51,068 bases of DNA from an uncultured Erysipelotrichaceae bacterium (lineage in GTDB: Bacteria; Bacillota_I; Bacilli_A; Erysipelotrichales; Erysipelotrichaceae): assembly GCA_944326055.1 (NCBI GenBank), contig CALVCT010000049.1, positions 1-51,068 of the forward strand. Reading direction: 5' to 3'. Under the pieces are notes generated by a model. It ran no database searches. It had not been told where the DNA came from and saw only the letters and a list, made by a program, of their open reading frames with translations. Of the stretch, positions 50,879-51,068 are shown piece after piece. Within the stretch, counting starts at the first letter, position 1; each line of letters begins with the position of its first letter. Position numbers and translations under genes: made by a program.

Positions 50879-51068
50879 ATGAAGAAGCTCTTGACATTAC
50901 AGGAAGAAAAGGCGACCTTAGCAAGCAAGCAAGCAAGCAAGCAAGCAAGCAAGCAAGCAAGCAAGCAAGCAAGCAAGCAAGCAAGCAAGCAAGCACTAGT
51001 TATGTAATAGAGAACTTATTCTTAGACAATAAGAACTTTTATAAAGCACCCATCATCTTAGATATGTG
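50879..51068 (+). CDS. Phase-variable gene of unknown function, 5' part, OFF as sequenced
   Basis: The ATG at 50879 starts MKKLLTLQEEKATLA and then enters the GCAA tract (50920-50995), translated as repeated Ala-Ser-Lys-Gln. In the present frame a TAA at 51005-51007 ends it after 42 codons. In the frame starting at 50995 the sequence stays open to the window end (TSYVIENLFLDNKNFYKAP, then IILDM). Gain of one repeat or loss of two would join the start to that frame. The product is not identifiable from these 25 residues. Surface, glycosyltransferase or DNA-methyltransferase genes are frequent in this arrangement. Confidence 0.7.
50920..50995. repeat. Tetranucleotide repeat tract (GCAA), 18.75 units
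   Basis: From 50921 there are 18 perfect GCAA units and a final GCA, plus one matching A before. No interruption occurs. It lies 14 codons inside a reading frame, the classic place for slipped-strand phase variation. Confidence 0.97.

Follow-up and report, generated by a model that had tools for sequence, protein, structure and literature searches.

The window, which is the whole 51,068-nt stretch of DNA that was analysed, stops 73 nt after a perfect tetranucleotide tract that lies within a short leader ORF. The features at this end of the window are:

50862..50870, + strand: extended -10 element of promoter P1, TGTTATTAT, 8 nt upstream of the leader ATG
50879..51007, + strand: leader ORF in its present OFF frame, MKKLLTLQEEKATLA(SKQA)n...LVM, 42 aa, ending with TAA at 51005-51007
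50891..50896, + strand: -35-like TTGACA of the promoter-like element P2 within the leader, conserved 30-36 nt ahead of the first repeat
50914..50919, + strand: -10-like hexamer of P2, GACCTT (nAnnnT), 17 nt past TTGACA and a weak match in the window
50920..50995, + strand: putative slippage tract, (AGCA)19 = (GCAA)18.75, 76 nt, period 4, 100% match
50996..51068, + strand: post-tract tail, with the ON-frame reading TSYVIENLFLDNKNFYKAPIILDM and its stop just past the window at +72 or +84
51043..51068, + strand: 5' arm of the terminator, AAAGCACCC (51043-51051), and part of its loop side

The tract at 50920-50995 received a TRF score of 152, compared with 44 for the runner-up repeat in the window, and begins 41 nt into the ORF that starts at ATG 50879. 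A preliminary description of this DNA had placed a perfect GCAA tract just inside a start codon and had called the gene OFF; all of its coordinates hold, and with the 19 units of the assembly the ATG frame indeed closes at 51005-51007. The tract encodes (SKQA)n in all three frames and is stop-free. After it, the second frame meets a TAG at 50997-50999 and the third stays open up to the window end. The unit is not a triplet, and when the unit number was changed in silico, 17 or 20 units placed the ATG in the third frame, in agreement with the earlier statement that a gain of one or a loss of two units switches the gene ON. The leader locus should be phase variable, presumably by slippage.

The extended -10 element that had been reported 8 bases before the ATG is present at 50862-50870. 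Because of this 8-nt distance, initiation in the window's genus appears to be near-leaderless, and a P1 mRNA would begin at or within ~3 nt of the ATG. In that genus, the leader ATG was present and conserved and a Shine-Dalgarno (SD) sequence was absent. Pfam recognized the MoxR and transglutaminase proteins of the MoxR-DUF58-transglutaminase neighbours named earlier, and the middle protein had no Pfam match. This upstream operon is probably incidental to the leader, because paralogous leaders occupy other sites in the genome. No known RNA family was found at the leader; the only matches, to tRNA and a purine riboswitch, lay elsewhere. The riboswitch (L009, 6810-6907) is situated behind the surface-protein gene of contig C11.

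The last 73 nt of the window were identical (73/73) to the post-tract sequence of two other contigs, C17 and C65. These two part from each other at +74 after the tract, precisely where the window contig (C49) ends. C49 therefore ends at an assembly fork, and its continuation is C17-like or C65-like. The third frame closes at +72 (TGA, C17-type) or +84 (TAG, C65-type), inside a hairpin whose 3' arm and T run lie past the window and are seen in C17 (L010) and C65 (L012). The folded stretch had an energy of -22.5 kcal/mol (z -4.5) for the C17 type and -25.7 kcal/mol (z -5.4) for the C65 type. With stops at +2, +10, and +72/+84 and a hairpin at about +48 to +98, the two OFF frames (+2, +10) end about 38-47 nt 5' of the hairpin. 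In C17 and C65, a secreted-protein ORF preceded by an RBS lies 134-136 nt downstream of the tract, and the downstream gene of the window would be that of C17 or of C65. Extension of the contig, which had been proposed earlier, was thus achieved through sister contigs as far as a terminator and a secreted-protein gene of either C17 or C65 type. In C65 (L012, ~850-3300), an insertion interrupts the secreted-protein gene behind the leader; by eye, its transposase resembles IS21-family IstA.

The preliminary description had taken the open third frame for a plausible protein of the gene and had counted on its staying open for more than a few codons past the window end. That frame closes 0-4 codons beyond the window, in the intrinsic terminator, and is ruled out as the regulated protein. 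Nor does the tract lie inside the regulated gene: the ORF is a short leader, and the likely target is another ORF, which has an RBS of its own and encodes a secreted protein. These results weigh on classical translational phase variation, in which the tract would encode part of the N-terminus of the regulated protein, with one frame reading into it. The layout of ATG and tract does resemble that of Haemophilus and Neisseria loci, some of which were recovered by the same pattern (L074, L100, L112), and at one locus unlike the others (G041:C39; L058, 2389-2456) the open leader frame crosses the hairpin and continues into the downstream ORF, fused to a fimbrillin-like protein (Pfam Mfa_like_1). 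In the window and on C11, C17, C43, C65, and C75, however, the open frame ends in or beside the terminator hairpin, and the gene behind it has a separate RBS and a signal-peptide-like start. We regard translational switching as very unlikely at the window locus, where it is already refuted should the window continue into C17 or C65.

Whether the genome holds further GCAA tracts had been asked earlier. Five were found in addition to that of the window, which makes six in this 1.38-Mb assembly of 81 contigs (G000): on C11, C17, C43, C49 (the window), C65, and C75. Contigs C17, C65, and C75 start or end within their tracts and provide only the downstream half. A terminator was present in C11, C17, C43, C65, and C75, with other hairpins and other genes in C11, C43, and C75, and in these five paralogs the next gene, with its own RBS, begins 103-136 nt past the tract with MKK or MKR and a hydrophobic stretch. 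Stops lie at +2, +10, and +48 and the hairpin at +49 to +80 in C43 and C75; the corresponding positions in C11 are +10, +29, and +66 and +50 to +81. From these positions it follows that one frame carries the ribosome into or up to the stem and that the others release it earlier. The tract census of G000, which covered the units GCAA, AACG, and GCAGA, also revealed two (AACG)n tracts (C16, C77) laid out as in the GCAA loci, with the leader MKHLTHDKSI(S/A)(I/T)ILTNERTNERT... and the same extended -10, ATG, TTGACA, and post-tract hairpin. In the congener G008, a (GCAGA)9 tract lies in a leader, MKRYLDITVVTSTHLSRAEQSRAEQ..., with a hairpin-like sequence and an ORF behind it. A leader with a GCAA tract on G004:C95 (L052) has a tail resembling the one on G004 C88 and is perhaps a recombined or orphan switch; no terminator or secreted-protein gene was found close behind its tract.

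When 98 relatives were searched for GCAA without conditioning on TTGACA, tracts were found in G004, G008, G041, G083, and G062 besides G000. The G062 tract sits in an HsdS gene, and HsdS tracts are a known type of phase variation. Such tracts within HsdS genes come right after an LLT motif (L060/L114 = G062, L098, L113), with TTGACA present by coding coincidence. A pattern search of named genomes that included TTGACA yielded at least 116 stretches, mostly from Lachnospiraceae and Oscillospiraceae/Ruminococcus; since TTGACA was required, this wider search is no evidence for TTGACA and is valid for other features. Twelve matches in viral contigs were listed, and none of those followed had the terminator-plus-leader layout.

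The loci of the wider set shared more than the repeat. A terminator-like hairpin was present at 71/98 listed loci (2-8 in dinucleotide shuffles). Among dereplicated listed loci, TGnTAnnnT occurred 5' of TTGACA at 28/47 (4.9 ± 1.9 in shuffles), an ATG or GTG no more than 12 nt past TTGACA and open into the tract at 36/47 (13.1 in shuffles), and an SD-like sequence before TTGACA at 37/47 (6.7 in shuffles). The reading frames after the tract also departed from chance in a manner suggestive of selection. Of 52 dereplicated listed loci, a single one lacked a frame that reaches the hairpin (8.1 expected, p 0.001), and in none were all three frames open (4.2 expected, p 0.002). In 51/52, some frame ended within 24 nt (42.6 expected; equalled in 0/1000 shuffles); two frames, not one, reached the hairpin in 22/52. 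Unit number ranged from 5.25 to 30 among paralogs and relatives. Where the leader start defined the state (57 listed loci), 28 were OFF, 25 ON, and 4 intermediate; both states therefore occur in assemblies. Tetranucleotide tracts can grow by mutation alone, and the locus could in principle be a neutral intergenic microsatellite beside an ordinary terminator. We consider this extremely improbable, given six GCAA and two AACG tracts with one shared architecture in a single small genome, and given that such loci recur in other families, where the frames are not random either.

Clostridia loci (L071-L176) have in common a post-tract motif near TAACTCTGCCCTTTTT; pairing of the leader SD with the post-tract CCCTTTT motif was rejected, as it scored 15.4 compared with 15.3 ± 0.4 in permuted pairs. 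In termite-gut MAGs of Zoogloeaceae/Accumulibacter type (L063, L080, L085, L093, L094, L109, L140, L166), TTGACA-N16/17-CATAAT or similar abuts long GCAA tracts that show no obvious SD/ATG leader, and in L063 a terminator and then a pilin-like gene follow.

A strongly hydrophobic N-terminal stretch was found in 54/63 of the proteins downstream of listed loci versus 58/276 ORFs in flanking loci, by the same crude measure of hydrophobicity and with a control that contains some spurious ORFs. Pfam matches among the targets comprised BspA-type leucine-rich repeats, InlB/Listeria-Bacteroides repeats, SLH, fimbrillin-like, and beta-helix domains; many downstream proteins, including most from the window's genus, had no match in the Pfam search. 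TetR_N was recognized in two members of the wider set (Clostridia loci L076 and L111), and the ORF behind the GCAGA leader of G008 (G008:C13, L203-L207) resembles these TetR-type regulators by eye. A phase-variable TetR-type regulator shared by distant bacteria is possible.

On the strength of the observed anatomy, frames, terminator, and recurrence, we think it very probable that the window end is a phase-variable transcription attenuator, in which the frame of the leader decides terminator read-through into a secreted-protein gene; slippage and antitermination are the steps that we infer. The transcript from P1 would have the short leader ORF as its first element. Slipped-strand mispairing would add or remove GCAA units, and each unit would shift the frame after the tract. 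In two of the three frames, including that with 19 units, the ribosome would stop at +2 or +10, the hairpin would fold, and transcription would end (OFF). With 17, 20, 23... units, the ribosome would reach the stop inside the hairpin (+72/+84) and block its folding, so that RNA polymerase would continue into the secreted-protein gene, which has its own RBS (ON).

This attenuator model does not account for the P2 element. TTGACA was found 30-33 nt ahead of the first repeat in 11/11 leader-type loci with upstream sequence, as recovered by the search that did not require it. The A2 and T6 of nAnnnT were both present at a spacer of 17 in 68% of listed loci, versus 0-28%, and mostly ≤4%, at other spacers. 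Conservation of TTGACA solely for the leader peptide (LT/LD) was rejected because the hexamer is kept in different reading frames. For the -10-like signal, peptide conservation (A-T-I/L) is partly plausible; the signal at spacer 17 is also seen in loci with other frames (L088, L089). A tract located between the TTGACA and a post-tract -10 was likewise rejected, the spacing being too long and variable, and the locus differs from a promoter-spacing SSR switch in that its tract lies downstream of both the P1 and P2 elements. TTGACA-N17-nAnnnT looks like a promoter with its start point inside the tract. An RNA begun at P2 would be missing the leader start and is expected to terminate. P2 might serve as a second promoter, hold RNA polymerase in a sigma-dependent pause while the ribosome catches up, or make the tract unstable through transcription.

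The same element raises the alternative of a promoter-type switch, with TTGACA and the -10 as the working promoter, a tract at +1 that tunes transcription by its length, and an incidental leader ORF. The strong conservation of the TTGACA-N17-nAnnnT spacing across frames, which persists in betaproteobacterial loci with no clear leader ORF, speaks for such a switch. It nevertheless leaves the frame statistics and the conserved leader starts unexplained, and the P2 -10 of the window is poor (GACCTT); moreover, the tract is downstream of the -10, so its length does not affect the -35/-10 spacing. We judge a promoter-type switch very unlikely.

The proposed attenuator has relatives among known systems. 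In pyrBI-type attenuation of E. coli, termination fails when a translating ribosome runs from the leader into the terminator hairpin; what switches pyrBI is UTP-dependent pausing of RNA polymerase, whereas here it would be a heritable change of frame. The tetranucleotide repeats of Haemophilus and Neisseria (e.g. PMC2651432) resemble that of the window in beginning shortly after a start codon, in switching the frame, and in their link to surface proteins, but they lie in the regulated gene and act on translation, in contrast to a separate leader that would act on transcription termination. The closest match is pil1 of Streptococcus gallolyticus, where GCAGA repeats in a leader ORF switch expression via ribosome-induced destabilisation of a premature terminator, as established by Danne et al. 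2014 through variant sequencing, RT-qPCR, terminator deletion, leader-start mutation, and stop insertion; pil3 follows the same plan (PMC3894217). The likeness extends to a promoter, a short leader ORF with a non-triplet repeat, a premature intrinsic terminator, and a surface gene behind it, as well as to a short OFF leader (39-49 nt before the hairpin in pil1) and an ON leader that ends beside or in the hairpin. The window itself holds the repeat in a leader ORF and, by sequence match only, the P1 promoter; the terminator, the frame-dependent stop position, and the downstream secreted gene apply if it joins C17 or C65. Because the window anatomy agrees with pil1 in these sequence-level features, we propose the same working principle with another unit and in another lineage, and the pil1 unit GCAGA occurs with the window's layout in the congener G008.

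There are also differences. The unit is GCAA (also AACG) here, in place of the GCAGA of pil1; pil1 is ON in two of its three frames, and the window locus would be ON in one; the pil1 leader has an RBS and ATG, unlike the predicted near-leaderless ATG without an RBS in the window's genus; at least eight loci occur here in one 1.38-Mb genome; and the targets are diverse secreted proteins rather than a sortase pilus. The window locus additionally carries the embedded TTGACA-N17-nAnnnT, an element that the comparison with pil1 does not cover. The mechanism is thus not categorically new, since it matches the pil1/pil3 switch; what is new is the unit, the host range, the many loci per genome, and the conserved promoter-like element. 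The preliminary remark that few such tracts have been described in Firmicutes of this type is a fair account of the searchable literature, to which must be added one published Gram-positive case with the leader mechanism (PMC3894217). Later searchable papers mention a pil1-type mechanism for S. gallolyticus only. We think it less likely than not that GCAA, AACG, and GCAGA leaders form a widespread cassette that is not a simple copy of pil1, with P2 (a second promoter or sigma-dependent pause) as a working part. If this were true, P2 would time ribosome loading, make a terminated repeat RNA, or raise the mutability of the tract.

As far as we found, frame-switched leader antitermination has been demonstrated experimentally only for the pili of S. 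gallolyticus. The anatomy described here suggests that uncultured Clostridia and Erysipelotrichia of the gut may commonly use it as a stochastic switch for secreted or surface proteins and some regulators, and that one small genome may contain many of these switches. Because the tract lies outside the regulated gene, such loci would be overlooked or wrongly assigned in the usual screens for phase-variable genes. The ON and OFF states would be readable from the repeat number in long-read metagenomes, so that heterogeneity of commensal populations may be tested without culture.
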